A stretch of DNA of 64,000 nucleotides from Terriglobus roseus (GCF_900102185.1 NZ_LT629690.1:3720001-3784000); one strand, 5' to 3'; positions 44,862-64,000 are shown, counted from the stretch's first letter. Notes: generated by a model from the sequence alone, not told the origin. Translations and numbers: made by a program.

Positions 44862-45033
44862 GGCGCCCATCGTACGCCGTTCGCTGAACGTTAAAGAAGA
44901 AGAACGTTAACCTTTATCGCCAGCACTGAACCAAACTATGTGGCCGAACCATAGCCGGTCATTGAGGAGTCACCCGTCCCGGTCAAACCGAGACCAGACG
45001 GGAGCGGTTCAGGTGCGACGCGTTTGCCTTCGA

Positions 45034-46779: not shown

Positions 46780-46789
46780 AGCGGAGCTC

Positions 46790-47635
46790 CTATTTCAATG
46801 TTGTCAGGTACGCCGTCAGGTTGCGGAGATCACTGTTTTTCCAGGTCCGCAGCATGTCTACGTGCGTCTGCAGAGGATCGTGAACCACCACCTGCGGTGC
46901 GCCGTTGATGATCTCGAAGCTCATGTGTGTGCCGTCCTTCTGAGTTAGCGAGACGTTGAATGCATCCAGGTGATCCAGGCGGCCCTCAACTGTCCGTCCA
47001 CCAGAGGTCACGGTCACAGTCTTCCCACCTCTACCGCGACCCGCGCGACCGGAGACGATTGCGTTCTGCAAATCTTTCGGCGAGTACTTGCCGCCGATGC
47101 CAGCAAAATCTCCGGTGACGGAGTGGCATGTGCTGCATTTGCCGGCACCGTCGAAGTAGGCCTTACCCATCTGAGTATTGCCCACCACGATGTCCAGCGT
47201 TGAAGGCGCACCCCTGTTGCCTAGCGGCTGGCTGTGCAACCACCCAGCGATGGCGACAATGTCATCATTAGCCAGGTTGAACTTGGGCATGCCCTCAGCC
47301 TGCCGGCTACCGTGTACGACGGGTTCGATGAGCTCGCCATTCTGATCGTCCAGCACCACCTTGTTGCGGATCAGGTTTGGGCCCACCGATCCCCCACGCG
47401 CATCGTCGCCGTGGCAGAAGCTGCAGTTGGCGCTGAACACTTCTTTGCCGTGCGCTATTACAGCGGGAGCTACCGGTGGCCGAGGGGCGTTGTAGGGCTC
47501 GGTTTGCAGGCGGCCTTGCGGGCCCGCCGGGCTGGCACCGGCATGGCCCTCTGCTGCCGGCTGCTGAGCTTTCAGGATGGATGGCAAGGATGCCAGTACT
47601 ATCACCATCCACCACCACTGCGATTTTTGCTTCAT
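46790..47635 (-). CDS. Exported dihaem cytochrome c
   Basis: 281 residues with a signal peptide (WWWMVIVLASLPSILKAQ). Two covalent haem sites are seen: CSFCH (about residue 71) and CSTCH (about residue 165). The linker between signal and first domain is Pro/Ala-rich. It ends with a C-terminal segment LQTHVDMLRTWKNSDLRNLTAYLTTL. Placed directly upstream of the PQQ enzyme, it is its likely electron acceptor. The cytochrome domain pair matches the type fused to quinoproteins in other bacteria. Confidence 0.92.
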   Translation of the reverse strand: MKQKSQWWWMVIVLASLPSILKAQQPAAEGHAGASPAGPQGRLQTEPYNAPRPPVAPAVIAHGKEVFSANCSFCHGDDARGGSVGPNLIRNKVVLDDQNGELIEPVVHGSRQAEGMPKFNLANDDIVAIAGWLHSQPLGNRGAPSTLDIVVGNTQMGKAYFDGAGKCSTCHSVTGDFAGIGGKYSPKDLQNAIVSGRAGRGRGGKTVTVTSGGRTVEGRLDHLDAFNVSLTQKDGTHMSFEIINGAPQVVVHDPLQTHVDMLRTWKNSDLRNLTAYLTTLK

Positions 47636-47710
47636 TAAAGGCTACCCTCGACTACTACGATCCGACGCGGCTGTTCCCGAAGTGCTCGCGCGCTGCGAGC
47701 CTGTTTCTGG

Positions 47711-48733
47711 CTATGCTAATGCGGCCTTCGCATACGCAAGGCACTTCACAATTTCTTTCTCGCTGTTTGATCCTTCGGGCGGCTGGTACTCCAGCTCGAT
47801 CGTGGCCGGAAACTTATACTTATCCTTCTTCATCAGTGCCAGCACTTCCTTGATGGGAGTGTCGCCCTGTCCCCATGGCATGTTCGCGCCGCCATTTTCT
47901 TTGAACTTGCGATCCTTGAGGTGCACGCTGGTGATGCGCTCATGATTCTTCTGCACGAAGGCAACAGCATCGTGATTGCCAGCGGCGGTATAGTGGCCGA
48001 TGTCGAGATTGATGCAGTTGTAAGGTGACTGCGACATTGCCTCATCCCAGGTCGTTGGTGTCGCTTGCAGATGGGCATGATACCCAACCCTCGTTTTGTG
48101 CTTGAGCGCAAACTTGCCTATGCGCGCGGTCAGGGCAGAATCGCCATCCGGCATCTCCATCGTCAACTGATTCGCGCCAAGAACCTTCACTACCTCGAAC
48201 GTCCAGTCATATAGCTCATCCGGCATCGCGTTGGTCAGGCTCATTTTGAAACCGTAGATCCAAATGCCTGCGTCGTTGTACAACTTGCGAACTTCTTCGA
48301 ACTTGGCAGGCGGCGTTGCAAGACGCCACTTGTTGAGTGCTTCCTGATAGGCGAGTTGTTCCGGGCTTGGAGCACGAGGAGCCCGCGGCTCACCGGCAGG
48401 GGGGACGGAGGCAGGACGTCCGGCACCCGCAGCAGGGGCAGCGACGGGCCGCGGCCGGGCAGGCGCCTTCGGAGCACCCAGGAACTCTGCCAACGGCTCG
48501 TCATGGCTCTCGGTCGCACTGATGCCGTCCCTGACCATGTAACTCACCAGGGATCGGGCGTCGTCCGGCATGTTGTGGTAGCTGTACGCCGTGATGATTC
48601 CGACCTGGACGCCGCTGAATACGGAATTAGGTTTGCCCTGGGCAAAGAGCGACCTCGGGTATGACGCTGCAGCCGCGGCGAATGGGAGAGTGGTTGCTGC
48701 CAGCTTGCCGAACTGCCGTCGCGTATACGTCAT
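47711..48733 (-). CDS. Tat-exported xylose-isomerase-like TIM-barrel protein
   Basis: About 340 residues from the ATG at 48733, which places TRRQFGKLAATTLPFAAAAAS as a twin-arginine signal at the N-terminus. An upstream start at 48769 would add 12 residues. A Pro/Ala/Arg-rich insertion of about 45 residues (near 85-130) interrupts the barrel. Later segments GYHAHLQATPTTWDEA, NCINLDIGHYTAAGNHD, ITSVHLKDRKFKENGG and ATIELEYQPP are the usual sugar-phosphate isomerase/epimerase metal-site strands. It heads the operon with cytochrome c and PQQ dehydrogenase. It probably acts on a periplasmic sugar; the reaction is unknown. Confidence 0.87.
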   Translation of the reverse strand: MTYTRRQFGKLAATTLPFAAAAASYPRSLFAQGKPNSVFSGVQVGIITAYSYHNMPDDARSLVSYMVRDGISATESHDEPLAEFLGAPKAPARPRPVAAPAAGAGRPASVPPAGEPRAPRAPSPEQLAYQEALNKWRLATPPAKFEEVRKLYNDAGIWIYGFKMSLTNAMPDELYDWTFEVVKVLGANQLTMEMPDGDSALTARIGKFALKHKTRVGYHAHLQATPTTWDEAMSQSPYNCINLDIGHYTAAGNHDAVAFVQKNHERITSVHLKDRKFKENGGANMPWGQGDTPIKEVLALMKKDKYKFPATIELEYQPPEGSNSEKEIVKCLAYAKAALA

Positions 48734-49434
48734 GGTATGGCTCCGATTCTTTTTCAGTTCTGCGAACACTCGTTGGGTGAGGTCGAAGACGTAAATGACA
48801 TGTCAGACTGCGATCCACGTTAGATCCCCACTGTCACGAAGCGCAATCACTATCATCAGCTCGCGCGAACAGCCGCAAAAAGCCTGAGTGTGGCCAGCCG
48901 GGAATTGTCCTTGTGAATCGCTGCGAATTTTAGTATGAGGGCCCAACTCTTAGCAAAGGCGGCTCTGTTCACTGGTGCAATGCCCAGACACGCAGCGCTC
49001 TTCCCCACATGACATCACTCAGGCCCTCCGCGCTCATGCCGGGCGGGGTGACTCCTTAGAAGTAGTGAACAAGTCTAACGTCTTCACCTGAGTGAGATGA
49101 GCAAGTCTGATTCGTACAGTAATAGTGGTTAGCAATAACACTTGCCATCGATGCGATCCAATCACGAGCCCTGGGCTCATCGCCATCCGCGCTTCTCGCA
49201 TTCATGGCAGCCGAATCATCCCCCGTGAAACCATAATTCGCCCACGATTTGGGTTGGGTGTGGGCTATCGTCTGTTCTGACGACGCCTGACAAAACAAGC
49301 TCAGTGCCCCCCCGTACTAAGAAGTGAAATCTCCTTGACATCGCGTCTGCATTCGCTAGTCTTGGTGATCTCAGCGAGAGCGTATTACTTTGCGTTGCCA
49401 AAACTCATAGGACCGTTTCTGCAGGAGATCTCCC
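48734..49434. other. Divergent intergenic region
   Basis: About 700 bp between the TIM-barrel gene (minus) and the membrane-protein gene (plus). A TTGACA (49335-49340) near the right end may be the -35 of the downstream gene, but the -10 is poor. No gene, repeat or RNA was recognised. Confidence 0.45.
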
Positions 49435-50505
49435 ATGCTGAACTCCACAGCCCTTGAAGTAGCGATTGGGTTGGCGCTGGTCTTCCTTCTCCTCAGTCTG
49501 TTCTGCACCACGATCAATGAGTCCATTGCGGCTGTTCTCGGTTGGAGAGCCAAGACCCTGGAGAAGGGTATCCAAAGTCTGTTCAGTGGCGGCCAGATCA
49601 CCGTGCTGGATGCGAACAACGTTGCAACGCTGCGCAGCCTGTCCGATGTTGTGTACAACCACGGCCTTGTGCAAGGCCTGTACAAGGGAAGCCCTTCCCA
49701 GACGTTTACCCCAGCTTCGCTGATTCATCCGCGCTCACTCCCCTCATACATCCCGTCGCGGGTTTTTGCGAGTACGCTTTACGACATCCTGTTCAACGGA
49801 CCTGCTCAAGCGTTACGAGATACTTCGCCAGCGGCAAGCCTCAGGAACATGCTCGACTCTCTCAACCAATTGCCTGACAGCAAGGCTAAGGAGGCGCTAT
49901 TACTGTTGGTGCGAGAGGCTGGAGGCGATGTTGATGCCACACGAAAGGCGATTGAGGGCTGGTTCAACGATGGCATGGATCGTGTTTCCGGCTGGTATAA
50001 ACGCCGCACACAACTGGTGCTCTTCTCGCTTGGTATTTCCATCGCGATACTGCTGAATATCAACACCATCGCAGTGGCCAAGACGTTCTGGGCGAGTCCG
50101 GCCGCGCGCGCCTATGCCATCAAAGCTGCCGAAAGCTACACACCGCCTCCGCAAGAAGCTACCTCGCCAGGATCCACAACGAGCACCGCGGCCTCAAGCG
50201 TGAAGAAACTACCAGTAACAGCCTCGGAACAGATCGCTGCGCTTGGCGACCTTGCATTACCGCTCGGTTGGAACAACGGTTGGTATCCATGGCCAAAGAA
50301 TTCCAACGGTACCGAGTTCACGGGAAGCCAGTTAATTCTGAACTTCGCCATGACAATCCTGGGGTGGACTCTTACTGGATTTGCTGTGACACTTGGCGCT
50401 CCCTTCTGGTTCGATCTGTTGAACCAGTTCATGGTTGTTCGTTCTACTGTTAAGCCATCTGAAAAGAGCGGCAACGAAGGATCGAAGGATCCGCAGCCCT
50501 CTTAA
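49435..50505 (+). CDS. Membrane protein of unknown function with three hydrophobic segments
   Basis: 356 residues. Segment 1 is LEVAIGLALVFLLLSLFCTTINESIAAVLGW. A soluble helical region of about 150 residues follows. Segment 2 is TQLVLFSLGISIAILLNINTIAVAKTFW. A Ser/Thr/Pro-rich loop leads to segment 3, LILNFAMTILGWTLTGFAVTLGAPFWFDLLNQF. The C-terminal tail is polar. I do not recognise a named family, though the first segment looks like a widespread uncharacterised bacterial membrane protein. It is followed by the propeller gene 42 bp later on the same strand. Both lead toward the unusual cluster at 51761-60057. Confidence 0.8.
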   Translation: MLNSTALEVAIGLALVFLLLSLFCTTINESIAAVLGWRAKTLEKGIQSLFSGGQITVLDANNVATLRSLSDVVYNHGLVQGLYKGSPSQTFTPASLIHPRSLPSYIPSRVFASTLYDILFNGPAQALRDTSPAASLRNMLDSLNQLPDSKAKEALLLLVREAGGDVDATRKAIEGWFNDGMDRVSGWYKRRTQLVLFSLGISIAILLNINTIAVAKTFWASPAARAYAIKAAESYTPPPQEATSPGSTTSTAASSVKKLPVTASEQIAALGDLALPLGWNNGWYPWPKNSNGTEFTGSQLILNFAMTILGWTLTGFAVTLGAPFWFDLLNQFMVVRSTVKPSEKSGNEGSKDPQPS

Positions 50506-50547
50506 ACACTCAACCTCCACCTCACCGCGCTTCACGCCGGACAAGAC

Positions 50548-51777
50548 ATGAAGACCTACCCCTACTCCTTTCACATTGCGCTGGATGGTAACGGCATCAA
50601 CGGTCTTGAAGGCATGGCGGGGATGTGCCTTTTCCACTTCGATCCAGCAGACAACAGCTACGCCTACAAGGTGAAGTATTACGACGGCGCATCCGCCGGC
50701 CACGCTTGCATGGTCAGCCCGGATGGCAAGCATGGTTATCTGGGCAATGCCGGCCAGCACTTGCTGTTCTATGACGCGGCAACGATCGAGGAGCAACAGC
50801 GCATCTCTACGCTGCGGTATGAAGCGAACGATTCCACGATTCGAGGCAGCACGCACGTTGTATGGCTGAACGACAAAGAAGTGTTGACCGCAGTAGGCAA
50901 TTACTTCTATCGCTTTTCCGTGGACAGCCTGGACAAGGGCGAGCGGTTGATGCCACACAACGTGAAGCTGCCACATGGGATGAAGGTAAGTGCGTCCGGC
51001 CGATACTTAGCCTACGGCTCCATGGATAACCCAGCCTTTGGGGCCAAGGGCGAAGCGCGGGAAATTGGCATACTCGACTTAGTCACGGGTGAGGTCACGC
51101 ATCTGCCCATGCCGACGACGTGTTGGCATATCGTCGCGCATCCCAAGAAGGATCTCTTCTACGCAGTATCGTTTCGTGTGCTGCCGCAGGACAACGTGAA
51201 CTATCACGAGTGGGCAATGGCGTTTTTGAAGGAGTATGCCTACGAGATTGATCCAGCCGAAAAGCGGATTTCACGTCATTGGTCGACAAGTCGGGAGACA
51301 CCAGCACACATTAATTCCGACATCACGATCTCCGATACAGAACTCATGTTTTGCAATGGCGGCAGTCAGACGATCGTCTGTGTAGACCTGGAGACATTCT
51401 CAAAGTATCGCGTGATTGATGAGCGTCCCAGCTTTCTTACGCAGATGAAAAACCCTCGTCAGGTCGGCACGCAGATTTACGACGTGCTCGCACGTGGCGG
51501 GCTCTTCAGCAGTTCGAAACACCTGCTGGATGCCATGCGGGTGAGCCGGTTTACTTTTTTGGATTCGATCTATGCGTGTCAGTTGTCGAAGGATCAATCA
51601 CTGCTTTTCACGGCGAATCGTGGATTGAATCACATCACCGTCTACAACTATCCCGAAGCCACCATTCGACTGAGAGTGCAGATGCCCGATCTGCATGAGT
51701 TTATGCCATCGCTTACGACGATTGCCGATCCGCGGCTGGGCTTTCATCACAGCTATCTGATCAGCCCGCAGATGTGA
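50548..51777 (+). CDS. Cytoplasmic beta-propeller-like protein, unknown function
   Basis: 409 residues with no signal peptide. Repeated beta-rich segments of a propeller are seen: HACMVSPDGKHGYLGNAGQHLLFYDAAT, VSASGRYLAYGSMDN, LSKDQSLLFTANRGLNHITVYN. They are followed by a His-rich end LGFHHSYL. No enzymatic signature was found. The last 17 bp overlap the end of the convergent SRPBCC gene. It likely belongs with the preceding membrane protein. Confidence 0.8.
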   Translation: MKTYPYSFHIALDGNGINGLEGMAGMCLFHFDPADNSYAYKVKYYDGASAGHACMVSPDGKHGYLGNAGQHLLFYDAATIEEQQRISTLRYEANDSTIRGSTHVVWLNDKEVLTAVGNYFYRFSVDSLDKGERLMPHNVKLPHGMKVSASGRYLAYGSMDNPAFGAKGEAREIGILDLVTGEVTHLPMPTTCWHIVAHPKKDLFYAVSFRVLPQDNVNYHEWAMAFLKEYAYEIDPAEKRISRHWSTSRETPAHINSDITISDTELMFCNGGSQTIVCVDLETFSKYRVIDERPSFLTQMKNPRQVGTQIYDVLARGGLFSSSKHLLDAMRVSRFTFLDSIYACQLSKDQSLLFTANRGLNHITVYNYPEATIRLRVQMPDLHEFMPSLTTIADPRLGFHHSYLISPQM

Positions 51778-52315
51778 CCTGCGGCGTTGCGTTCGCGAGC
51801 GTCTCCGCGGCCATGGCGAGCTTGCGAAAGTTACCGGGAATGAGGGACGTCACAAAGCTCTCGGCAGCGGCGGCGACGGTCGATTCAAGAATAGAAGGCA
51901 CACCCGGAAGTCCCTTTGCATTTAAGCTGAACTCGCCCGCGAAAGTAATACGCGTACCACGCCCGCCAAGGGCCGGTTCAAACGTTGTCAGGCCTGTGCA
52001 GCGCGTGCGATCTGGCGCGAAGTGCAGCTCGATTTGCCATGCACATTCATGATTCTTTTCGTGCCACATTGCGCGGTCTGTCCAGGCCAACATATCGGAC
52101 TTGATGACTGTAGAAAGCACAGCGGGAAACTTAGCCTTTGCCTGCCACAGGTTGACGAGAAAGATGTCGCCATCAGGCTGCGTCGTTCGTTCCTGAACAG
52201 CGACGCTCTCAATTTCATCAAGATGAGGCACGAGTTCGCCGAGCCGGTCACGAATGGCTAACCATGCGTCTTCCACTGGGATCTTCACAATTTGAATGGA
52301 CTTGAATGTTTTCAC
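51761..52315 (-). CDS. SRPBCC-family lipid-binding-like protein
   Basis: 184 residues with the START/polyketide-cyclase pattern: FKSIQIVKIPVEDAWLAIRDRL, FLVNLWQAKAKFPAV, LTTFEPALGGRGTRITFAGEFSLNAKG, and a final amphipathic helix. It is the last gene of a four-gene minus-strand operon and overlaps the SDR gene by 4 bp. Members bind hydrophobic ligands such as polyketides or lipids. The ligand here is unknown. Confidence 0.82.
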   Translation of the reverse strand: MKTFKSIQIVKIPVEDAWLAIRDRLGELVPHLDEIESVAVQERTTQPDGDIFLVNLWQAKAKFPAVLSTVIKSDMLAWTDRAMWHEKNHECAWQIELHFAPDRTRCTGLTTFEPALGGRGTRITFAGEFSLNAKGLPGVPSILESTVAAAAESFVTSLIPGNFRKLAMAAETLANATPQVTSAG

Positions 52316-53373
52316 GGTGCTTCCTTCATGAGTGCTGCGCGTGCGTCGTAGACTTCGCGGCCGAGCGAGAGCGTTTGCCGCAGCGGAATGGAAACATGTT
52401 TGCCAGCTACCAGTGAGGCGATGGCAGTGGCAAGTGCAGCACGCGCGGGTCCTGGCGCATAGCCCAGTTCATCTGCCGCCTTCGCATGGCTGTACCAGTA
52501 GAACTGCCCAACCATTTTCGCTTGTTCGCGTGTTGTGGTTGGGCGCGTGCCAGAAAACTGCGCCCACATCTCATGCGCGGTCGCGGCCAGAAAGCTGATG
52601 GTGTGGTTTGCGTAGAACTGAGGACCGGAGACACCGCAGAGTTCACCGACGGTGCGATGAATCAGCGACCACTCCATGTTTTCGGAACCAAGCAGGTAGC
52701 ACTCACCACGTCTTCCCTTCTCAGCAGCGAGAATATGCCCCCGAGCGACGTCGGTCGCGGATACGATGTTGCACCCACCGGGAAAGGTAGTGCGAAAAGG
52801 ATCGGAGAGATAGGCGATGATGATGCCGTTGCTTGGACTAAGTTTTGTGTCGTGCGGACCTACCGTCATGCATGGGTTGACGACCACAAGATCAAGGTCA
52901 AGGTCTGCAGCGAGTTTTAGTGCCGTACGTTCCTGGTGCAGCTTACTGAGGCAATATGCTGGCGACGATGTTTCATCGGGCGCATCCGTCTCTGACCGTA
53001 CTGCGGTGTAACTGGAAGAGCCGAACACCACCGACGAAGACGTAAGTACTACGCGCTTCACGCTCGCGGTGCGTGCTGCAATCAATACGTTAGATACGCC
53101 ATCAACGGCAGTCTTCTCCAGGTCATCATCGGTGATGCCCCAGTACGAAAACACGGAAGCCACATGGAAAACGACATCGCAACCGGCGACAGCAGGAAGC
53201 AGTGTCTCCGGTTGCAGTACATCGCCGTAAACGATGGCGAGAGATAGATCCTTGATCGCACTCAGGTCGCTGCTGGTGCGCACGAAGGCGCGCACCTCAT
53301 ATCCATCCTTGAGCAAAGCACGACAAAGGTTTGCGCCGATGAGACCATTTGCGCCTGTGACAAGAGCGATCAT
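52312..53373 (-). CDS. NAD(P)-dependent SDR, 3-beta-hydroxysteroid/dihydroflavonol reductase-like
   Basis: 353 residues. The Rossmann motif is TGANGLIGANL (residues 6-16). The active site is seen as LTSSSVVFG and YCLSK (Tyr and Lys, near residues 140-145). The C-terminal half is longer than in sugar epimerases and resembles HpnA/sterol-type extended SDRs. It abuts the 729-residue gene (stop at 53374). The substrate could be a hydroxylated lipid or terpenoid, but that rests on family resemblance alone. Confidence 0.88.
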   Translation of the reverse strand: MIALVTGANGLIGANLCRALLKDGYEVRAFVRTSSDLSAIKDLSLAIVYGDVLQPETLLPAVAGCDVVFHVASVFSYWGITDDDLEKTAVDGVSNVLIAARTASVKRVVLTSSSVVFGSSSYTAVRSETDAPDETSSPAYCLSKLHQERTALKLAADLDLDLVVVNPCMTVGPHDTKLSPSNGIIIAYLSDPFRTTFPGGCNIVSATDVARGHILAAEKGRRGECYLLGSENMEWSLIHRTVGELCGVSGPQFYANHTISFLAATAHEMWAQFSGTRPTTTREQAKMVGQFYWYSHAKAADELGYAPGPARAALATAIASLVAGKHVSIPLRQTLSLGREVYDARAALMKEAP

Positions 53374-55563
53374 TCAACTCTCCGGATTCTGTGTGCGATT
53401 CGGTGCGACGTCTCGCTGAATAGCCCTGGCTAAATCTCTCAAGAAATCGACTGCGCCATCCGTAACAGATTGCAGTTGAGCTTTGTCGATCAATGAAGAT
53501 ACCGGGCTGGCTGCAGCATCTGGCGTATTGGACGACGGCGCGAAGTGTGAGAAACCGTCCGCATCCACATAGATGGGTGGAGGAGGCGTCGTACGCAGCG
53601 AGAGCTTCGATGTAAGACGGTCGACCGCAACGCGTGCACTATCGGTAAGCTCGCTGAGTGAGTTGGAGAGCTTCGCGGAAGCAGGCTTAGGCTGTGTGTC
53701 GGCAGCAGTCCAGGGCTGGCCAACGCGGTATTCTCGTTGCTCAAATTGCGCGGTGAAGTTTGCGATTGTCTTCGTGAAGAAGTTCTTATACGCATCCGCC
53801 ACGAGGTAGTTCTTGAGCGCGGGATTCAGGTCAAGTTGCATCATCTGCCAGAACACCGGAAGAGAAAACTCCTGCCGCCCAACGATGGTGATTTCCACTT
53901 CATTCGCAGGTGTCCGCTTGAAGATAACGATGCCATCATCGAACCTTGCGGAGTTATTTTCACTCTTGATGGTGCGCCACCAGATTTTCTGCTCGTTCTC
54001 CGTGTATCGCGCAAACTCAAGTTTGGAAACATCGATCGGTTGGCCTCCGCTCGGCGCCGTGTAATTGGGCTGCGGCAGATAGATGTTGCGCTCCGCCTGA
54101 TGCGTCACACGACCAGCCTTATCGCGAAAAACGGGAACACACGAGCCACCGATGTAATCGTTCATCATGCGAATGGAACGGGTAATATCCACCTTTGCCA
54201 CAAAGTCATCGAATGGGATTGGGATTTCACGCGAGACATGGAACAGGATGGAATGATCGAGGGTGTGAAGCCGCATTCCATTGGCATCCGGCGGGAACTG
54301 CAGCACCAGTTGTTCCAGCGGTTCCATGTAGTCCTGCGACGCTTCATAGTCTGCCGCCGTTAAATCCTGCAAAGAGATGTTGAGCGGACGCTCCATCCAC
54401 TTCAACTTGTCCTTCGCAAACATCACCTTCGATGCATCATTGAGTTGGTTTGCGCTTCCCAGTGTGTAATTCAGACTTAGAAAGGCGGCGAACGAGAGTG
54501 GGTCTGCATCCAGGCTGCCGAACTGCGCGGCAAGTGTGCTGTTGATCCTGTCCGTCATCGCGTCCTTAAATGGAAAGAGCAGCCGATCCACACTCTGCAG
54601 CCAGGCAATGGCAGTGCGCTGCACTTCGAGCGATCCATTTCGTTTGGCCACAGCATCGGCCACCATGGGATGAACATTCTTTACTGCGGGAAACGGCGTC
54701 AGATCTCCAATGACCGAATACTGAGACGGTAGACCCTGTTCACGTAGTAGTTTCGCCACAATGGGAGACGTGTATGGATCGACGCCAAACTTATTTGCGA
54801 GCGTCCAGTCCGCCAAGGTTGCGCTGCTGCTTGCGATGATCGTTGAGACAGCGAGCGGCATTGCGCATCGCGAACCTGCGCTGCCATGGTTCGCCAGGTA
54901 CGCATCCACAATAGCGAAATGAACAGGCGTGTGTTGCAGCAACTCACTGCACACATCTTCCGGGCGCAGACGGTGATAGTACTGCAACTCAGTGTCCTGC
55001 AACGGCAAAACGCCAATCAGGTTTTGCGCTGTGCCAGCAAAGCTGAACTCATCATCGGTCTTTGCCTTCGCGAAGCTGATGCGAAAATCCGCATTCTTCC
55101 ACGAAGCATTGAGGGACGAACCGCTGAGGATGCTGGTTGCAGGAAACCCCGCATCGCAAAGATCTTCGCTAAGGTCTGAGAAATCGTATGCATTCTGTTG
55201 CGTGGTTTCGAAGCGATAGCCCGCGAGGTCTGCCACGATAAGTGGGTCGCGATTTTCCAACCAAAACCCTGAGCTGTTCTGAGCTGTGCCAATCGTTACA
55301 TTGGTGTATCCAGCGTTGTGCAGCCAATCAACCAGATGCTCTACCAATGCAGGGTCGGTGATGCAGGTGGCAGGCTTGAAATAGAAGTTCAGGTCGGGCT
55401 TGATGAAGATAGTTAACTGGGCGGCCGAAGTACTTGTCTGCTCGCACCGCAGGTTTAGTACCTGCAACAAGCCCGCCTGCGAAACAGCTTCGTCGAAACA
55501 GGCGAATTTGTCCTGCGGATCAGTAACGAGAGCTACGACGACGCCTTGTGTGGAGTCGTTCAT
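53374..55563 (-). CDS. 729-residue protein with DUF362-like N-terminus, unknown function
   Basis: The first 230 residues resemble DUF362: VVVALVTDPQDKFACFDEAV, IFIKPDLNFYFKPATCITDPALVEHLVDWLHNAGYTNVTIGTA. The middle (about 300-500) is mixed alpha/beta with no match I know (FHVSREIPIPFDDFVAKVDITRSIR). A Pro-rich tail and a final amphipathic helix region (VDRLTSKL, VTDGAVDFLRDLARAI) recall membrane or granule association. No [4Fe-4S] ferredoxin motif is present, unlike many DUF362 proteins. It overlaps the AarF gene by 4 bp. It appears specific to this cluster. Confidence 0.75.
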   Translation of the reverse strand: MNDSTQGVVVALVTDPQDKFACFDEAVSQAGLLQVLNLRCEQTSTSAAQLTIFIKPDLNFYFKPATCITDPALVEHLVDWLHNAGYTNVTIGTAQNSSGFWLENRDPLIVADLAGYRFETTQQNAYDFSDLSEDLCDAGFPATSILSGSSLNASWKNADFRISFAKAKTDDEFSFAGTAQNLIGVLPLQDTELQYYHRLRPEDVCSELLQHTPVHFAIVDAYLANHGSAGSRCAMPLAVSTIIASSSATLADWTLANKFGVDPYTSPIVAKLLREQGLPSQYSVIGDLTPFPAVKNVHPMVADAVAKRNGSLEVQRTAIAWLQSVDRLLFPFKDAMTDRINSTLAAQFGSLDADPLSFAAFLSLNYTLGSANQLNDASKVMFAKDKLKWMERPLNISLQDLTAADYEASQDYMEPLEQLVLQFPPDANGMRLHTLDHSILFHVSREIPIPFDDFVAKVDITRSIRMMNDYIGGSCVPVFRDKAGRVTHQAERNIYLPQPNYTAPSGGQPIDVSKLEFARYTENEQKIWWRTIKSENNSARFDDGIVIFKRTPANEVEITIVGRQEFSLPVFWQMMQLDLNPALKNYLVADAYKNFFTKTIANFTAQFEQREYRVGQPWTAADTQPKPASAKLSNSLSELTDSARVAVDRLTSKLSLRTTPPPPIYVDADGFSHFAPSSNTPDAAASPVSSLIDKAQLQSVTDGAVDFLRDLARAIQRDVAPNRTQNPES

Positions 55564-57257
55564 CGCTCTTGCCTCGCAGAAGCGTTCTTGTATCGAAACC
55601 CGCGATGAATCAAAGCTACGATGATGCTTGAAACGGCAGCAAGGACAGTCACCGCTAAGACTGCCTGTCGAACTGTTAGCAGCTTAGCCAGAATGAAGCT
55701 GCAGATAATGCCGCAGCCACCGAGCATAAGCAGGCCAACAAACAGGACCAACGCCAGTCGCGCATTAGCCCGGTCATAGCACCGACAGGCGTCTTCAAGG
55801 CCCAGGTGATCAAGCTGGATTTTGAGCTGTCCCTGCGCGAGTTGAGTGAACGTCGTCAGCAGCGTTGCAGAAAAATCCTGAAACCGCAGGAGAGTTCCCA
55901 GACCAATCCCGTAGTCCTGATGAGCGTTGGCATCCTGCGGCAATTCTGCCGGCTGGTTTTGACGAAGCAATGGCATTGCAATCGGAATCAAATCAAAAGC
56001 AGGATCGAGATTCTTGCCAACACTGTCTGCCGTTGCCAATACCTTAAAGGCGAGGTAGAAACCGCGTGGCAGGATAAGTCGGTATTTTCCAGTGATTGCC
56101 AAAATATCTGCGAGCAGACGGGGTACGACAACAGCATGCGTGGTTCGATGGCTCGCAAGAAAACGCCTCATGTCCTCACGCAGTGCGGCAGCATCAATGC
56201 TTCCGGTCGAATCCGAAAGAGCAAGGACGGAGGCCGTCGCTGATTCCGCATTCTGCTGCAACAAGCTGTACAGCAGCGTGTTCACGCACGCACGTTCCGG
56301 GGGACCAAGCTCTCCTACCAGGCCAAGGTCATAGAACCCGATCGCGCCATCCTTCGAGACGATGACATTGTCCGCATGTGGATCGCCGTGAAAGAACCCG
56401 AAACAGAAGATCTGCCGCAGTAACGTTCTCGCAAAGGCCTGCGCGGTCGACTTGTTGAAGGGCGTATAGCCCTGGAGATCCGCTAATTTCGTCCCCGGCT
56501 CATACGTTGTTGTAAGAACGTGACGCGCAGAGTGGGAACGGATGACGCGTGGAACACGAATACCGGAGTCATGTTCGAATTGCCAGGCAAACCGGTCAAG
56601 GTTGTTTGCCTCCAGTTCATAGTCCAACTCAGACTGAACGTCGTTCATAAAGTCTGAGACAAGTCGAGCCGCGGAATCGCCGTCGCCGCCAGTCTTCATG
56701 CGAAGAATTAGCTGTTGGATGATCGCGGTATCGCAGTGCAGCAGTTCTTCAAGGCCTTTTCCCTGCACTTTTACTGCGACTTCCGTGCCATCCTTCAACC
56801 ACGCACGATGCACCTGTCCGATAGAGCCTGAGGCGATGGGTATGCTCTCGATACGCTCAAAGAGCATAGAGATCGTGCCCTTGAGTTCCTCCTCGATGAC
56901 AGCTTGGGCCACTGCAAAGGAAAATGGCGTGGTTTCATCCTGCAGCTTGGCCAGTTCGTCGCGGAACGGCTTACTTAGAATTTCATCGCGCGTGGAAAGT
57001 AACTGGCCGAACTTAATGAAGGCGGGCCCAAGTTCACAGAGCGCGTCACGCACAGTTTTTGGTGAAACGCGTGGCGTGAATCTGCCACGGGCAAGATTCT
57101 CAAACATCTCAGAGAGGCCATACCGCACCAGGATTGCGAGCACGTCGCGGTAGCGTCCACGGCTGCGCGCATCAAGTATTCCGGTGATAGGTTCTGCCAC
57201 GGCCAATGTAGAGCCTCTTGCAGGGGGAAAATGTGCTGTGGGGGCCAAGATTATCAT
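55560..57257 (-). CDS. AarF/UbiB/ABC1 atypical kinase-like protein
   Basis: About 565 residues from the ATG at 57257; ATG at 57317 or 57302 would add up to 20. The family hallmarks are present: the KxGQ motif as KFGQLLSTR, GQVHRAWLKDGTEVAVKVQ (Ala-rich loop and Lys), FGFFHGDPHADN (catalytic loop) and FYDLGLVGEL (DFG-like). Two C-terminal membrane helices follow (ALVLFVGLLMLGGCGIICSFIL and AVLAVTVLAAVSSIIVALI). The family supports ubiquinone and other lipid metabolism through ATPase activity rather than protein phosphorylation. It is the first gene of the minus-strand operon, divergent from the 147-residue repeat gene. Confidence 0.9.
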   Translation of the reverse strand: MIILAPTAHFPPARGSTLAVAEPITGILDARSRGRYRDVLAILVRYGLSEMFENLARGRFTPRVSPKTVRDALCELGPAFIKFGQLLSTRDEILSKPFRDELAKLQDETTPFSFAVAQAVIEEELKGTISMLFERIESIPIASGSIGQVHRAWLKDGTEVAVKVQGKGLEELLHCDTAIIQQLILRMKTGGDGDSAARLVSDFMNDVQSELDYELEANNLDRFAWQFEHDSGIRVPRVIRSHSARHVLTTTYEPGTKLADLQGYTPFNKSTAQAFARTLLRQIFCFGFFHGDPHADNVIVSKDGAIGFYDLGLVGELGPPERACVNTLLYSLLQQNAESATASVLALSDSTGSIDAAALREDMRRFLASHRTTHAVVVPRLLADILAITGKYRLILPRGFYLAFKVLATADSVGKNLDPAFDLIPIAMPLLRQNQPAELPQDANAHQDYGIGLGTLLRFQDFSATLLTTFTQLAQGQLKIQLDHLGLEDACRCYDRANARLALVLFVGLLMLGGCGIICSFILAKLLTVRQAVLAVTVLAAVSSIIVALIHRGFRYKNASARQER

Positions 57258-57359
57258 CAATTTCGGGCCATAAAAGTAAATTGTGAAATCTGTTGTTGTC
57301 ATGCGATGAGTGCGCATATACTCCGGGCAGAATCAATACGCACTGAAAAGGCGGATTCT

Positions 57360-57803
57360 ATGTCTAAGGGCGGCACCCCCACAATTCCTAACGATTACAC
57401 GTATTCCATTGGCGGCACTGGAACTACACTGTCTGTCGATTACGGGTTGGATAACATCCATGTGAAAGAGTTGCCCGCGGTTGAAGTGGGCGTGACCTCG
57501 TTTCCAGAGGTTACGGGCAACGCTAACATCGCGATTAAAGAGTTGCCTCCCATCGTCTCCACCGTGACGACACTGTCCACTGTGAGTACGACTTCAAGTG
57601 TGGCAATTACAGAAATCCCGCCCATCACGACGAATCTGAATATCGCCGTCACGGAGATACCGGAACAGCGCATTCACTACCCGGCTCACTATCAGCTTGG
57701 GTTCAGTCTTCTGGGCATGGAGATCTGGGGCCTCTCGCTCTGCGGCGAAGCGCAGGTCATCAACGAAAAGTACGTTCCGCGTAGAACCGAGATTTGCCGT
57801 TAG
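57360..57803 (+). CDS. 147-residue protein with four short I-x-[IV]-[KT]-E-[IL]-P repeats
   Basis: The ATG at 57360 starts the coherent sequence; an earlier frame start at 57231 lies in the divergent promoter and is rejected. Four copies of a short unit are seen: NIHVKELPA (residue 32), NIAIKELPP (56), SVAITEIPP (80) and NIAVTEIPE (94). The spacing is 24, 24 and 14 residues, with Thr/Ser/Val-rich strands between. This suggests a small beta-solenoid or extended fibre. The C-terminal 45 residues (HYQLGFSLLGMEIWGLSLCGEAQVI) are a separate short domain. There is no signal peptide. No family is recognised. It leads the plus-strand operon of four tightly linked genes. Confidence 0.8.
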   Translation: MSKGGTPTIPNDYTYSIGGTGTTLSVDYGLDNIHVKELPAVEVGVTSFPEVTGNANIAIKELPPIVSTVTTLSTVSTTSSVAITEIPPITTNLNIAVTEIPEQRIHYPAHYQLGFSLLGMEIWGLSLCGEAQVINEKYVPRRTEICR

Positions 57804-57816
57804 AGCAGGAGTTCCA

Positions 57817-58611
57817 ATGGCCGAGTCAGTGATTCAGTACGCCAATGTTGACCCAAAGGGGGTTGTCTTTTACGGCCCTCCGAAGATGCTGCGTGGCACG
57901 TTACCGTTGGTCAATCCGACCGATCAGAAATTGAAGATGCAGTCGCTGGCTGTCACCACCGATACATTGCGTGGACCTGCATCTCTGCCGTTGCAAACCA
58001 TCGCCGTAGGTGTACGGCTGATGCCTGGGGAACAGGCCGCTGTGCGCAGTACGATTCAATTGGATCCGCAGACTGCTCCGGGAACGTACTCTTTCAGCGT
58101 CGATGTTGCCGGAACATCCGTTCCAGTGACCGCGCATGTGACGGAAGTCGTCGACTTCCGCATTGAGCCAGCATCGGTGACACTGCTCGCGGGATCGGAA
58201 AACTCGTTCGAACGAACCTTCGTCATTGAGAATGCAGGCAATGTTCCACTGCCGCTCGGCGAACGGTGTGAAGCTCCATTGACCGATTCGATCGATCTGA
58301 AGACATCCATGTTGCACGGGCTTAGCAACGCGGGCGATGCGGAAGTGAAAGAAAAAGTGAATGCATGGCTGAAGGACTGGGGCGAGCGCATGCCCGGCAT
58401 GCTTGTTGTCCTTCGCGACCCGATCGTACTGAGCCCCGGTAACAAAATGACTGCAACGGCGACCTTCCAGCTCCCAGATACTTTGCAGCCATTCCGCTGC
58501 TATACGGCGAACCTGCAGCTTTACAACGCATTTCTTACCGTGACGGTCTACACGACGCGCAACGTGAACACATCCAGTAAGAAGAAACGGGGGAATGAAG
58601 ATGGCGTGTAG
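57817..58611 (+). CDS. Ig-like beta-sandwich protein, unknown function
   Basis: 264 residues from the ATG at 57817, which follows AGGAG. A longer frame from 57697 reads the previous gene out of frame. Two or three Ig-like modules are suggested: LRGTLPLVNPTDQKLKMQSLAV, GTYSFSVDVAGTSVPVTAHV, RIEPASVTLLAGSENSFERTFVIENAGNVPLPL, and SPGNKMTATATFQLPD near the end. A helical insert (residues 175-200) breaks the strands. There is no signal peptide, so it would be cytoplasmic unless exported otherwise, unusual for such domains. The end overlaps the next gene by 11 bp. Confidence 0.8.
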   Translation: MAESVIQYANVDPKGVVFYGPPKMLRGTLPLVNPTDQKLKMQSLAVTTDTLRGPASLPLQTIAVGVRLMPGEQAAVRSTIQLDPQTAPGTYSFSVDVAGTSVPVTAHVTEVVDFRIEPASVTLLAGSENSFERTFVIENAGNVPLPLGERCEAPLTDSIDLKTSMLHGLSNAGDAEVKEKVNAWLKDWGERMPGMLVVLRDPIVLSPGNKMTATATFQLPDTLQPFRCYTANLQLYNAFLTVTVYTTRNVNTSSKKKRGNEDGV

Positions 58612-59350
58612 CGAATCCAGTGTCTCCAATCCAATGACTCAGGCCAGCCAGCAGGGCATGCAGTGGTTTACGGATTACACGAAAATGAACCTCCAGATGG
58701 CGCAAACTGCGACGCAGATGCTGACACCGGTGATGTCTGCCTGGATGAGTTGGTATCAGTCGCTGCTGCCGTCGCAGTTGAGCGATCTCACCAAGTCAAC
58801 GAGTGACACGCTGATGTCCATGGCGAAATCAGCCATGTGCGACATTCCTTCCACGACTTGTCCCCCGAAGTGCGCTTGCGATATCGACTGGTCAGCCTAC
58901 CCTGGCGAAATCCGTAAATCGACAGTGAAGATCAGGAACACCTCAAAAGACAGCATTGAATACACTTTTGTTGGTAAGCCCTTCTCACATTGCGGTAAGG
59001 CACTTGATCTGATTCCTGAGATCAACACCCAGTCCGTCACTGCTGCTCCAGGCGAGACGGTGAGTGTTGTGATCGGCGTTACGGTGGGCGAACAGTTCCA
59101 GAGCGGTGTTGCTTACGAGTCAGAAGTTCTGGTGCGCGGCAAGTATGAGCGCTGCATCAAGATCAAGTTGAGCGTAGCCTGCGGCTGCGACGATGCATGC
59201 AGCTTCGACCAGGGTGACATCCCATACCGCGTGCGCCCAGACAACTGGTACAAGCACTTCCAGTGCAGTGAACCGTGCTTTGAAGCGATCCAGCCGGGGC
59301 GCACTACAACTGGCGTCAATGGGACAGACGTTGCCGGAGTGAAGTCTTGA
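58601..59350 (+). CDS. Phasin-like helical domain fused to a Cys-rich beta domain
   Basis: 249 residues from the ATG at 58601, chosen because GGGGGA is well spaced; the ATG at 58595 is too close. Residues 10-80 are amphipathic and rich in Met, Gln and Ala (MQWFTDYTKMNLQMAQTATQM), recalling phasin proteins that coat hydrophobic granules. Residues 85-200 are a beta-sandwich-like domain with clustered cysteines (CDIPSTTCPPKCACD and CGCDDAC), possibly metal-binding or disulfide-linked. The fusion is unfamiliar to me. The end overlaps the next gene by 4 bp. Confidence 0.75.
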   Translation: MACSESSVSNPMTQASQQGMQWFTDYTKMNLQMAQTATQMLTPVMSAWMSWYQSLLPSQLSDLTKSTSDTLMSMAKSAMCDIPSTTCPPKCACDIDWSAYPGEIRKSTVKIRNTSKDSIEYTFVGKPFSHCGKALDLIPEINTQSVTAAPGETVSVVIGVTVGEQFQSGVAYESEVLVRGKYERCIKIKLSVACGCDDACSFDQGDIPYRVRPDNWYKHFQCSEPCFEAIQPGRTTTGVNGTDVAGVKS

Positions 59351-60057
59351 CGAATAACTCTCAAACGCTTGCAGACGCTTTGAAAACTCTTGAAGGCCAG
59401 GTCGTTGAGTCGTACGTTGACGGTTGGAAGAGCTATTGGAAGCTTGTGACAGATGTCGCGCGCGATCCATCATCGTTTCAGACTGCACAAAAGGAATATC
59501 TGAACCATGTGGTTCAGACAGTGCCAGGGAATGTCTCGAAGACCCTTCAGGCTGGTGTGCGGGTGTATGGAGCTCTTATTCAATCCGGCGGCCAGTTGGC
59601 TGGCGAACTCTACACGCGCACCGCACAAGACTTGACCAAGGCCGCAACTGCAGCTGCGACAACCGCAGAGACGGTAGCTGCGCGCGTCGTGGAACCAGCA
59701 CCGGTTGCGCCTTCGGAGTTTACCTTTGAGGGGTACGCGGAAGAAACACTCAGCAAGAGATTTCTTGTGTCGAACAGGTCTCCACATCCCGTCGACGTTG
59801 CTCTTGAGATCTCCAGCTTTACCCCGGATACTGAAGGTGCTTTGGTTCAAGTCAATGTGACACCGCAAACGTTTTCTCTTGCAGCCAATGAAGAGAACGT
59901 GGTGTCGTGCGCTGTGACGATCCCTCCCTCTCTTACGCCGATGAAGGACCACCGCGCTGTGCTTTCCGCTCCAGGCTTACCTTCTCTGAGCATTGGTTTG
60001 CATGTTCGCAGCATGGGTGAGCGGGACGTTGTGATTGAGGATGCGCCCACGGCTTGA
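59347..60057 (+). CDS. Second phasin-like plus beta-sandwich fusion protein
   Basis: 236 residues from a TTG start that overlaps the upstream stop (TTGA), with GGAG 6 bp ahead. Residues 5-110 form a long amphipathic helical region (LKTLEGQVVESYVDGWKSYW, YLNHVVQTVPGNVSKTLQAG, ATAAATTAETVAARVV) like a phasin. Residues 120-230 are a single Ig-like domain (FLVSNRSPHPVDVALEISSF, VNVTPQTFSLAANEENVVSC, HRAVLSAPGLPSLSIGLHV). The same two-part plan as the preceding protein, without its cysteine cluster, suggests an old duplication. It ends 11 bp before the convergent PAP2 gene. Confidence 0.75.
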   Translation: MTNNSQTLADALKTLEGQVVESYVDGWKSYWKLVTDVARDPSSFQTAQKEYLNHVVQTVPGNVSKTLQAGVRVYGALIQSGGQLAGELYTRTAQDLTKAATAAATTAETVAARVVEPAPVAPSEFTFEGYAEETLSKRFLVSNRSPHPVDVALEISSFTPDTEGALVQVNVTPQTFSLAANEENVVSCAVTIPPSLTPMKDHRAVLSAPGLPSLSIGLHVRSMGERDVVIEDAPTA

Positions 60058-60068
60058 TCCGCCTTGCA

Positions 60069-60638
60069 TTAGAAGAGGCAGAGAGCGAGAGATGTCGCAA
60101 CAAACGATCCGACTCCAATCCCTGCGATAAGATCCGAAGGATAGTGCTGGCCGCTTGCGACGCGAGCCCAGCACAGCAACAACAATCCGAACACAAGCTC
60201 TGGGATAGCTCGATGATGTTGCCAGCAAAGCAACACACCGACCACGGATAAGGTCATGCAATGACCGCTAGGGAAAGAGTATTGATCCAGGCAGCGCCCA
60301 CGATACGGAACGTTCTTGGCGAAGTGAAATGGCCGTTCGCGAGCAAGGCGTGGCTTGGTGGAACCGTACAACAGATGCGCTACGACAACCCCACTCAAAA
60401 GCGCGAATAACAGCTTCCACTCATGCAGAAAAATGACCCACAGCGCCAGCGGTGCATAAATCCAGCCATTGCACATCTGATTGGTGACATCTGCAAGTAG
60501 GCGAAACGGCCTGGGTTCTGATAGCCGTACCAGCTTCACGACCCACGGTATTTCCCTGTGATTCATGCGCAGGAATAACGCATCAATCCGAGCACGAGAC
60601 GAGGATGTAAGCGGGGCTAGGGCGTTTGTGGAAGACAT
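60069..60638 (-). CDS. PAP2-superfamily membrane phosphatase
   Basis: 189 residues with about five helices. The three phosphatase motifs are present: KPRLARERP (motif 1), YSFPSGHC (motif 2) and ARVASGQHYPSD (motif 3 with His and Asp). Such enzymes dephosphorylate phosphatidic acid, undecaprenyl or other isoprenyl diphosphates at the membrane. It is convergent with the second phasin-like gene and lies 226 bp from the dnaE2 end. The substrate is unknown. Confidence 0.9.
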   Translation of the reverse strand: MSSTNALAPLTSSSRARIDALFLRMNHREIPWVVKLVRLSEPRPFRLLADVTNQMCNGWIYAPLALWVIFLHEWKLLFALLSGVVVAHLLYGSTKPRLARERPFHFAKNVPYRGRCLDQYSFPSGHCMTLSVVGVLLCWQHHRAIPELVFGLLLLCWARVASGQHYPSDLIAGIGVGSFVATSLALCLF

Positions 60639-60833: not shown

Positions 60834-60866
60834 GATCCTTATCGCATTAGAAATGCGATAAGGATC
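60834..60866. repeat. Perfect 15-bp inverted repeat at the dnaE2 stop codon
   Basis: GATCCTTATCGCATT and AATGCGATAAGGATC are separated by AGA. The stem includes two bases of the dnaE2 stop codon (60865-60867). No T-run follows on either strand, so it is not a classical rho-independent terminator. It may be an mRNA 3' end stabiliser or a protein site. Confidence 0.8.
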
Positions 60867-63800
60867 AATGGAAGTCGTGGGATCGAATATCGACAGGGTC
60901 AGCCGAGAAGGCCTCCAGAGATTTCGCCTTGATATGGATCACACTGTCTTGATTCTGTAATTGTCCATATACCTTAAGGAATTTTGCGCGAGTGACAAGA
61001 ACACGATAACGATCGTAAAGATCCGGATGGATGACAATATTCGCGATACCGGCCTCATCTTCCATAGACAGGAAGATAAAGCCCAGTGCAGTACCTGGAC
61101 GTTGGCGAGCGATGATGGCTCCCGCGATGGCAACAAAAGTCCCATCCTCTACAGAGCGAAGCTCCGTGCTGTTCAGTAGTCCTTCATGACGAAGTTGTGC
61201 GCGCCAGTAGGCCATGGGATGTGCGCTCGTGGTGAGACCTGTGCCGGCGTAGTCGCTTACCAGACGATCTCCCGTAGTCATACGCTTTAGAGGCGATACA
61301 TACTGCTCTTTCTGCACATCCACAGCACGCAGCAGAGGCCCCACAGCACGTGCAGCCTGTTCTACTTGCCAGATTGCATCGCGTCTATGCTCTACATCGC
61401 TGAATGAATTCAATGCCCCGATACGAGCCAGCTGGGTGAGATCGCCACGTGTAAGGCAAGGCACTCTGAGACTGAGGTCATTCACACTGCGAAAGTGACC
61501 GTGGGCCTTCCGCTCGTCTACGAGTGATGTTGCGGAACTTCTCTTCAAGCCTCGAACATAATTCAATCCCAGCTGCAATGAGAGCGAACCATCGTGTTCA
61601 GCTTGTACTGTGCACGCCACCTCGGATGTTTGCGCATCGATGTATCGCACCTTGAGTCCGTGTCGCTGCGCATCTTTGACGAGCACGGCCGCCGAATAAA
61701 ATCCCATTGGCTGATTGTTGAGCATGGCACAAGTGAACGCAGCGAGATACTTTACCTTGAAATAGGCCGAAGCATACGCGATGAGTGCAAAGCTGGCGGC
61801 GTGCGATTCAGGAAATCCATACAGTGCAAAGGACTGAATGCTCTGCACGATCACATCCTGCGTGGCGGGGGCAATCTTGTTAGTCTGCATGCCCGCACGA
61901 AGCTTTACCATCAGCTCTTCCATACGCTTCCAGGAACGGCGCATGCCTACGGCCTTGCGCAATTCCTCAGCTTCAGCCCCGCTGAAGTTACCTACGACCA
62001 TCGCAATCTTCAGCAGTTGCTCTTGAAAGAGAGGCACGCCTAAGGTGCGTTTAAGTACTGGCTCTAATTCATCGAGCGGATACGTCACTTTCTCTTTACC
62101 CTGCCTGCGGCGCATGTAAGGGTGCATCATCTTACCAACGATAGGTCCTGGACGGATGATGGCGACCTGCACAACGAGGTCGTAGAACTCTTTTGGATTA
62201 TTGCGTGGCAGCGAAGCCATTTGTGCACGACTCTCCACCTGAAACATCCCTACGGTGTCTGCACGGCTAAGAGTTTCATACACTTCCTTGTCTTCCGGCA
62301 TGTGGGCTAGATCCACTTCATCGCCGTAGTGCTGCGGAATCAAGGTAATGCAGTCTTTCATGACTGCCATCATGCCTAAACCAAGCAGATCGATTTTGAT
62401 TAAGCCTAAATCTGCGCAGTCTTCTTTATCCCATTGCACGACGCTGCGGCCACGCATTGACGCCCGTTCGAGTGGAACGACTTTATTCAGTTGCCCCTGG
62501 CAGACGATCATGCCGCCAGAGTGCTGCCCCAGATGGCGAGGCAAATCCTGCAAGCGCTCACACAATTCGACATACTTTGCGATTCTCCAATGCGATGGAT
62601 CAAAGCCTGCATGCCGAAAATTATCTTTTAGCGTTTCGTCCTTCTTGCGCCACTCCCAATGGCCGATAAGACCAGAGAGTCTGCCTAGAGTTTCTTCATC
62701 AAAGCCAAGCGCTTTGCCAACTTCCCTCGCCGCTGATTTTCCGCGATAACTGATCACATTCGCGGCCATGGCTGCACCCAATTCTCCATAGCGCGTATAG
62801 ATGTACTGGATCGCCTGCTCGCGCTTATCACCGGAGGGTAGATCCAGGTCGATGTCAGGCCATTCATTGCGGTTTTCGTTTAGGAAGCGTTCGAAGAGGA
62901 GGTCCATACCGATAGGGTCGATGGCTGTGATTTGAAGCGCATAGCAAACAACAGAATTTGCTGCGCTTCCCCTCCCCTGCACGAGGATGTCGCTTGACCT
63001 GCAGTATTGGACGATGTCCCACACGATGAGAAAGTAGCCAGCAAAGCCGAGCTTTTCAATAAGTGTAAGTTCTCGCTCCGCCTGCGTTTGGGCACGCTTA
63101 TATAACTCAGAATTGCGTTTGGCTCCGTAGCGAAGCGCCATACCTTCCGCGACGCGCTTGCGAAGGTAGATCTCCATTGGCTCGCCTGTATTGGTGGTGT
63201 AGCAGGGGAACTCATATCCCAGATCGTTCAGCTCAAATTTCAAGCGCTGCGAGATGAGCAATGTATTGTCCAGCGCTTCCGGCAGATCACGAAACAAATG
63301 ATGCATTGTTCTTGCGTTACGAACAAAACGCTGTGAGTTGCATTGCAACAGGCGGCCTGCATCATCCAGTGAAACGTGATTCTGAATGGATGTGAATACA
63401 TCCAGCACTTCACGATCATATGGAGTCGCGTAGCGAACTCCGTTGGTGGCCACAATGGGTAGTTTGAGAGACTCAGCGATACGCAGCGCGGCCTGGTTAC
63501 GAGCCTCTTGCGCTCTGATGCCATGGCGCTGCAATTCTACGTAGACATTGTGTGGTCCGTAGACGTCTACTAACTGTTCTACGCACCGTCTGCCTTCTGA
63601 TTCGCCACCACGTGTAAGGGCGGCAGCAAGTACACCTTCGTCTCCTCCGGTCATGCAGATGAGGCCAGCTCGGAACTCTTTCAAATCGTCTAAAAGCGCT
63701 ACCCCTTCACATTTGGTGGTTTCACGCATTTTGAAGCGCGTGATCATTTGGCAGAGATTTTGATACCCAACACGGGATGTACAGAGCAGGGGCACCCTTG

Positions 63801-64000
63801 CAGGTCGAGCAGGATATTGATCCGGGAGGCCTAATGGAGGAACAAGCTTCATCCCGAAATCTGCGACTGAGATCTCCGCGCCAACATGAGCACGCACATC
63901 GTTTTCTTTTGCTGACGTATGAAAACGAGCGGAGCCGTAGAAGCCGTTGCGATCAAGCAACGCAATCGCAGCCATGTCTTCCTGAAATGCAGCTTTGATG
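60865..64000 (-). CDS. dnaE2: Error-prone DNA polymerase DnaE2 (N-terminus cut by window edge)
   Basis: Open from the window end to the stop at 60865, giving about 1044 residues. The ATG at 63975 is internal; upstream sequence continues in frame and fits the family opening before ALLDRNGFYGSARF. The polymerase Asp motif is PDIDLDLPSGDKREQAIQYI. KGREG-type features of DnaE are followed by an OB-fold end (DEAGIANIVIHPDLYDRYR). DnaE2 carries out SOS-induced mutagenic translesion synthesis, usually with ImuA and ImuB. Those partner genes are not in this window and may lie upstream. Length and motifs are normal. Confidence 0.95.
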   Translation of the reverse strand, partial: IKAAFQEDMAAIALLDRNGFYGSARFHTSAKENDVRAHVGAEISVADFGMKLVPPLGLPDQYPARPARVPLLCTSRVGYQNLCQMITRFKMRETTKCEGVALLDDLKEFRAGLICMTGGDEGVLAAALTRGGESEGRRCVEQLVDVYGPHNVYVELQRHGIRAQEARNQAALRIAESLKLPIVATNGVRYATPYDREVLDVFTSIQNHVSLDDAGRLLQCNSQRFVRNARTMHHLFRDLPEALDNTLLISQRLKFELNDLGYEFPCYTTNTGEPMEIYLRKRVAEGMALRYGAKRNSELYKRAQTQAERELTLIEKLGFAGYFLIVWDIVQYCRSSDILVQGRGSAANSVVCYALQITAIDPIGMDLLFERFLNENRNEWPDIDLDLPSGDKREQAIQYIYTRYGELGAAMAANVISYRGKSAAREVGKALGFDEETLGRLSGLIGHWEWRKKDETLKDNFRHAGFDPSHWRIAKYVELCERLQDLPRHLGQHSGGMIVCQGQLNKVVPLERASMRGRSVVQWDKEDCADLGLIKIDLLGLGMMAVMKDCITLIPQHYGDEVDLAHMPEDKEVYETLSRADTVGMFQVESRAQMASLPRNNPKEFYDLVVQVAIIRPGPIVGKMMHPYMRRRQGKEKVTYPLDELEPVLKRTLGVPLFQEQLLKIAMVVGNFSGAEAEELRKAVGMRRSWKRMEELMVKLRAGMQTNKIAPATQDVIVQSIQSFALYGFPESHAASFALIAYASAYFKVKYLAAFTCAMLNNQPMGFYSAAVLVKDAQRHGLKVRYIDAQTSEVACTVQAEHDGSLSLQLGLNYVRGLKRSSATSLVDERKAHGHFRSVNDLSLRVPCLTRGDLTQLARIGALNSFSDVEHRRDAIWQVEQAARAVGPLLRAVDVQKEQYVSPLKRMTTGDRLVSDYAGTGLTTSAHPMAYWRAQLRHEGLLNSTELRSVEDGTFVAIAGAIIARQRPGTALGFIFLSMEDEAGIANIVIHPDLYDRYRVLVTRAKFLKVYGQLQNQDSVIHIKAKSLEAFSADPVDIRSHDFH

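Follow-up and report, generated by a model that had tools for sequence, protein, structure and literature searches.

A four-gene core of Ig-like and helix-Ig proteins recurring beside different lipid and polymer enzymes in two bacterial phyla

What purpose could proteins that join phasin-like helices to Ig-like domains serve in Terriglobus roseus, where they are encoded back to back with putative lipid enzymes? The question is raised by a block of genes in the window, by which we mean the whole stretch of 64,000 nucleotides analysed here, and in an earlier note on this DNA the block was taken for a ten-gene system. All ten open reading frames at 49435-60057 are present in the place and order given there, and an eleventh, coding for a PAP2-family lipid phosphatase that the note had missed, begins 11 bp past pha2 (Table 1). 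By their coordinates, the reading frames overlap by 4 bp at SDR/SRPBCC, DUF362/AarF and pha1/pha2, and by 17 bp at ig/pha1; the 11 bp claimed earlier for the last pair holds should the second ATG of pha1 (58601) be its start codon. The start of aarF probably lies downstream of 57317.

Table 1. Genes of the block, with positions counted in the window
Gene	Position	Strand	Product and remarks
mem	49435-50505	+	membrane protein, widespread family; accessory, absent from L064
prop	50548-51777	+	cytosolic beta-propeller-like protein; dN/dS 0.009
srp	51761-52315	-	SRPBCC/polyketide-cyclase-like lipid-binding fold; weak family match
sdr	52312-53373	-	extended SDR, HpnA/SdmB/OleD-like; GxxGxxG and YxxxK
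d362	53374-55563	-	729 aa; N-terminal DUF362 (PF04015)
aarF	55560-57317	-	ABC1/UbiB-family kinase; accessory, absent from L064
rep	57360-57803	+	147-aa repeat protein; core gene 1
ig	57820-58611	+	263-aa Ig-like protein, probably double beta-sandwich; core gene 2
pha1	58595 (or 58601)-59350	+	amphipathic helical N-terminus and Cys-rich Ig-like domain; core gene 3
pha2	59347-60057	+	phasin-like helices 2-110 and PapD/ASH/MSP-type beta-sandwich 123-222; core gene 4
pap2	60069-60638	-	PAP2-family lipid phosphatase; eleventh block gene

Every gene of the block is under purifying selection, with dN/dS between 0.009 and 0.17 in the comparison of the window with the congener G408. This congener carries all eleven genes, PAP2 included, in the same order over 11,434 bp at 91% identity, and within the 20 kb compared there is no similarity outside the block, the flanks being unrelated. 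Carriers are few: the ig profile finds whole-protein matches in 4 of 396 Acidobacteriota (the window genome, G408, and G036 and G195, both from one other genus), while the propeller was seen in 0 of 246 other genomes sampled and pha2 in 0 of 119 others of the family. The genome samples are partial, the contig scan used two short peptide patterns that diverged relatives can escape, and rep matches at E 0.01-0.05 were weak and taken as noise. Judged by its whole-block conservation in G408, its dN/dS range and its few carriers, the block is functional, behaves as a unit and is rare. Only the unrelated flanks suggest a recent transfer within the genus, since DnaE, tried as a clock of genome divergence, was dropped as multi-copy and probably mobile. 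A plasmid- or virus-borne system was also considered and rejected, as tblastn of the core and type 1 proteins against plasmids and two scans of viral contigs found nothing.

Sequence and predicted fold of the four core proteins

The four plus-strand genes from rep to pha2, which we call the core, encode proteins with little resemblance to curated families. Rep is built of xIxIxELPxI repeats with a C-terminal FSLLGMEIWGLSLCGEAQVI motif (dN/dS 0.036) and has relatives in the loci L035, L036, L047, L049, L064, L065 and L070. The ig protein (dN/dS 0.014) is 45% identical to its counterparts in L035, L036 and L049, with further relatives in L064, L065 and L070. Pha1 contains 12 Cys and the motif CDIPxTxCPPxCxC ... 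WYxHFxC, and it shares 30% identity with L064 and, over the Ig part, 37% with L070; relatives of pha2 occur in L064, L065 and L049. No signal-like N terminus was found on the core proteins or on their soluble partners.

The AlphaFold2 model of pha2 (six sequences, pLDDT 72), in which our confidence is moderate, places helices at 2-39 and 41-110 in front of a beta-sandwich at 123-222. Its top Foldseek matches are PapD-type chaperones, the ASH domain of OCRL, CEP192, Hydin and the MSP domains of VAP, so that on the predicted model the domain belongs with the MSP/ASH/PapD-type folds. Pha2 shares this predicted fold with VAP, OCRL, Hydin and the PapD chaperones; unlike them, it has no family membership at the sequence level, is fused to a phasin-like helix and is a cytosolic bacterial protein. 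The mean hydrophobic moment is 0.34 for pha1 (p = 0.001) and 0.39 for pha2 (p < 0.001) against shuffled sequences, and the counterparts in L064 and L049 are also strongly amphipathic against shuffles, that in L065 less clearly so. With the pha2 model, these moments make pha1 and pha2 helical proteins with amphipathic stretches, as phasins are, and the values lie within the range reported for PhaP1 (PMC5658603). We regard such features as those of a putative surface-active cytosolic protein.

Phasins are covered by four Pfam families, PF05597, PF09602, PF09650 and PF09361 (PMC5658603), none of which is matched by pha1 or pha2 at E <= 1 or by their counterparts in L064 and L065 at E <= 0.5. More generally, none of the four core proteins has a convincing match in Pfam or NCBIfam. 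PHROGs yields one weak match, of the rep repeat region to a family of unknown function (E 3.6e-5), and PADLOC yields marginal partial matches alone (E 0.004-0.007), for which reason a defence system was rejected. The fusion proteins around which the earlier note was written are thus real, as far as AlphaFold and amphipathicity predict helix and sandwich, and undescribed in the curated collections searched (Pfam, NCBIfam, PHROGs, PADLOC); among open-licence papers, no description of this gene set was found.

Enzyme partners of the core in two phyla

A search of the class of genome G497 brought up the pseudomonadotan genome G540, in whose locus L064 pha2, pha1, ig and rep stand on one strand, divergent from d362, sdr and srp, followed by the propeller and PAP2 genes; the layout matches that of the window, and nine of the eleven block genes are there. 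Identity to the window is highest for the propeller (69%), followed by SDR (54%), SRPBCC (51%), DUF362 (39%), rep (37%), pha1 (30%), ig (22%) and pha2 (20%). As a test set beforehand, the earlier note had asked whether its genes occur together, with unchanged order, in other genera; their failure to do so would have been a refutation, and since G540 carries nine block genes that refutation fails. The gene set is conserved, but a fixed ten-gene system has to be given up: AarF and mem are missing from L064 and therefore are not core. Comparison of these genomes shows that what is conserved as a unit is the quartet of genes on the plus strand, and that the enzymes adjoining it are exchangeable.

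The core recurs in eight loci from two phyla, with rep, ig and the Cys-rich Ig gene adjacent in all eight and the phasin-Ig gene present in seven. Its partners fall into four types. Type 1, that of the window, combines SDR, SRPBCC, DUF362, propeller and PAP2. In type 2 (L035 and L036 from Acidobacteriota, L049 from a proteobacterial MAG), homologues of ig, rep and the Cys-rich Ig protein and a phasin-like/Ig protein accompany a polyketide synthase of 1776-1777 aa with the order KS-AT-KR-ACP-MT (Pfam on L035); the copies of L035 and L049, which were checked, both retain intact KS, AT, ACP and MT motifs. Type 3 (L065, genome G634) is an operon of rep, ig, Cys-rich and phasin-Ig genes followed by a PhaC-family PHA synthase, which is class II-like and has the GxCxG-like (Cys), Asp and His active-site motifs. 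In type 4 (L070, genome G856), rep, ig and the Cys-rich gene have as neighbours an alpha/beta hydrolase, a GMC enzyme matching cholesterol oxidases (E 7e-31) and a DyP peroxidase (E 3e-50); no phasin-Ig gene was seen at L070. Profiles made from the rep and Cys-rich proteins of type 1 alone, searched against a small database, find rep of the other types (E 1e-12 to 3e-24) as well as the Cys-rich protein of type 4 (2e-36), and the pha2 profile, again in a small database, reaches L065 and L049 at 2e-4. Weakest is the connection from the type 2 Cys-rich protein to pha1, at hhalign E 0.0013 and a probability of 19%.

PhaC (PF07167) was found in none of the window genome (G000), G408, G036, G195 and G497, and a PHA synthase was seen in L065 only. 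A PHA granule in the window genome was rejected because PhaC was not found there.

Two side observations concern these loci. The type I polyketide synthase at L035:11340-16670 lacks a thioesterase and, unusually, carries its methyltransferase at the C-terminus, behind the ACP, an arrangement conserved in three genomes. Upstream of the type 4 locus, L070:13232-16470 encodes a GlpD-like FAD oxidase and an FAD-linked oxidase; the latter may resemble alkyl-DHAP synthase, and the two possibly belong to an ether-lipid pathway.

Coat, scaffold or membrane assembly

Since the core turns up in distant bacteria next to four differing sets of enzymes for lipids or polymers, its role may be that of a reusable coat or scaffold. 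The reading that most simply accounts for the data, to which we give a probability of roughly one half, is that the four proteins form a transferable cassette of this kind, serving a hydrophobic product. Through their amphipathic helices, pha1 and pha2 would enter the surface of this product, be it a droplet, a polymer granule or a membrane patch; their Ig domains would point to the cytosol and build a shell together with the double-Ig and repeat proteins, and the shell would keep the neighbouring enzymes in place there. Along with the enzymes, the cargo would be exchangeable: a lipid in type 1, and elsewhere the products of a polyketide synthase, of a PHA synthase, or of a cholesterol-oxidase-like enzyme with a DyP peroxidase. 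From the HpnA/SdmB/OleD-like SDR together with SRPBCC and PAP2 we infer a lipid cargo for type 1, and it is probably one other than PHA because the window genome is without PhaC.

The operon of L065 links the core proteins directly to a granule-forming enzyme; of all the evidence, this argues best for a module able to serve a hydrophobic granule. The hydrophobic inclusion proposed in the earlier note gains support here, because homologous core proteins share an operon with a PHA synthase and elsewhere adjoin polyketide- or sterol-type enzymes. The likeness to the PHA granule, or carbonosome, lies in genes for amphipathic helical proteins adjoining the gene of a hydrophobic-polymer synthase, which in L065 is one of the PhaC family. 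In contrast to that granule, the core proteins carry PapD/ASH/MSP-type Ig domains and stand outside the four phasin families (PMC5658603), two further proteins, rep and ig, are always present, and the window genome and the other carriers tested are without PhaC; as type 1 and type 2 carriers are among these, the granule analogy stands on the one type 3 locus. Further points against a coat are that the four enzyme sets share little beyond hydrophobic substrates, that no phasin-Ig was found in type 4, and that both the pha1 link to type 2 and the pha2 model are of limited strength. We are only tentative about the wider idea of a new class of organelle or coat, a single interchangeable shell of four proteins with Ig domains and amphipathic helices that bacteria would combine with varying enzymes, each time to store or assemble another hydrophobic product (PHA, polyketide, sterol-like, type 1 lipid).

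If the coat or scaffold reading is true, bacteria possess a general module, distinct from the classical phasins, that deals with water-repelling products and is reused with different synthases. Such a module would offer a genetic way to find storage or natural-product compartments that are new, would mark lipid products in Acidobacteriota that are not yet known and could possibly help to keep hydrophobic pathways together in engineered cells. The reading also predicts that wherever the core is present, a hydrophobic product of the neighbouring enzymes is present too.

Two other assemblies would each explain most of the data as well. The helix-Ig proteins could be soluble in the cytosol and, as scaffold or carrier, hand hydrophobic intermediates from one enzyme to the next with no inclusion at all: swappable enzyme sets fit docking as well as coating, the PapD/ASH/MSP-type Ig fold is a protein-protein docking domain elsewhere, and the Cys-rich domain could bind metal. 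The strong amphipathicity of the helices and, in L065, a PHA synthase as partner favour a surface function, however, and we think such a metabolon unlikely, if still a serious candidate. Less probable again is a core seated on the inner membrane with mem and PAP2 and modifying an isoprenoid or hopanoid-like lipid. The HpnA-like SDR, the intact PAP2 motifs, the adjacency of mem and the presence in the block of the genome's only strong AarF/UbiB-type ABC1 match speak for this arrangement; yet mem and AarF are absent from L064, the mem family is promiscuous, and in type 3 the enzyme that accompanies the core is a soluble one of granules.

An extracellular or envelope structure, such as a chaperone-usher-like fibre with the Ig proteins as subunits, is very improbable: PapD-type folds do head the structure matches, but the N termini are not signal-like, usher and pilin genes are missing nearby, and the partners are cytosolic enzymes. 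Equally implausible, despite the patchy distribution, are unrelated genes joined by chance or in a genomic island without joint function, already disfavoured by L064, for strong purifying selection on every gene and a gene order that Acidobacteriota and Pseudomonadota share at protein identities of 20-69% mark the block, on comparative grounds, as more than a chance assembly.

Enzymes, accessory genes and flanks in the window

Pfam confirms the earlier identities of AarF (ABC1/UbiB), DUF362 and the SDR (epimerase/3beta-HSD type), whereas for the SRPBCC and propeller calls family matches exist but are weak (for srp, DUF2505 at 1.7e-4 and Polyketide_cyc2 at 9e-4). The SDR scores best against HpnA, then SdmB and OleD, but below all curated cut-offs (HpnA, TIGR03466: 264 bits vs 367.65). 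AarF likewise stays below the UbiB cut-off (TIGR01982: 282 bits vs 487.55), its membership of the ABC1 superfamily being clear, and it is the only strong ABC1 match in the window genome. The propeller is the most conserved block gene across phyla, and PAP2, with its counterpart in L064, retains KX6RP, PSGH and (S)RX5H. The DUF362 protein is 39-40% identical to its L064 counterpart over the full length; a low-confidence model (pLDDT 38) gives its C-terminal half a START/SRPBCC-like order of elements, and neither PDB nor Pfam supports an SRPBCC domain there. DUF362 relatives in other Acidobacteriota (the short loci L007-L010) are single-domain matches, and inspection of large ORFs alone shows no sign of other block genes. 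Members of the mem family lie on the plasmid loci L037, L038, L039 and L040 beside amidases, patatin, a cyclase and DUF2235; since the family occurs on many plasmids next to amidases, patatins and others, mem is no part of the core, and the family is promiscuous, widespread and uncharacterised.

To the right of the block, at 60865-63975, lies a DNA polymerase III alpha/DnaE2-like gene without an ortholog of >70% identity in congeners; other DnaE copies are 91-96% identical between G000 and G408, and the window gene may be mobile. Immediately to the left, the minus strand at 45034-48769 encodes a PQQ-binding propeller, cytochrome c and xylose-isomerase-like proteins, and a cupin gene lies at 44421-44870.
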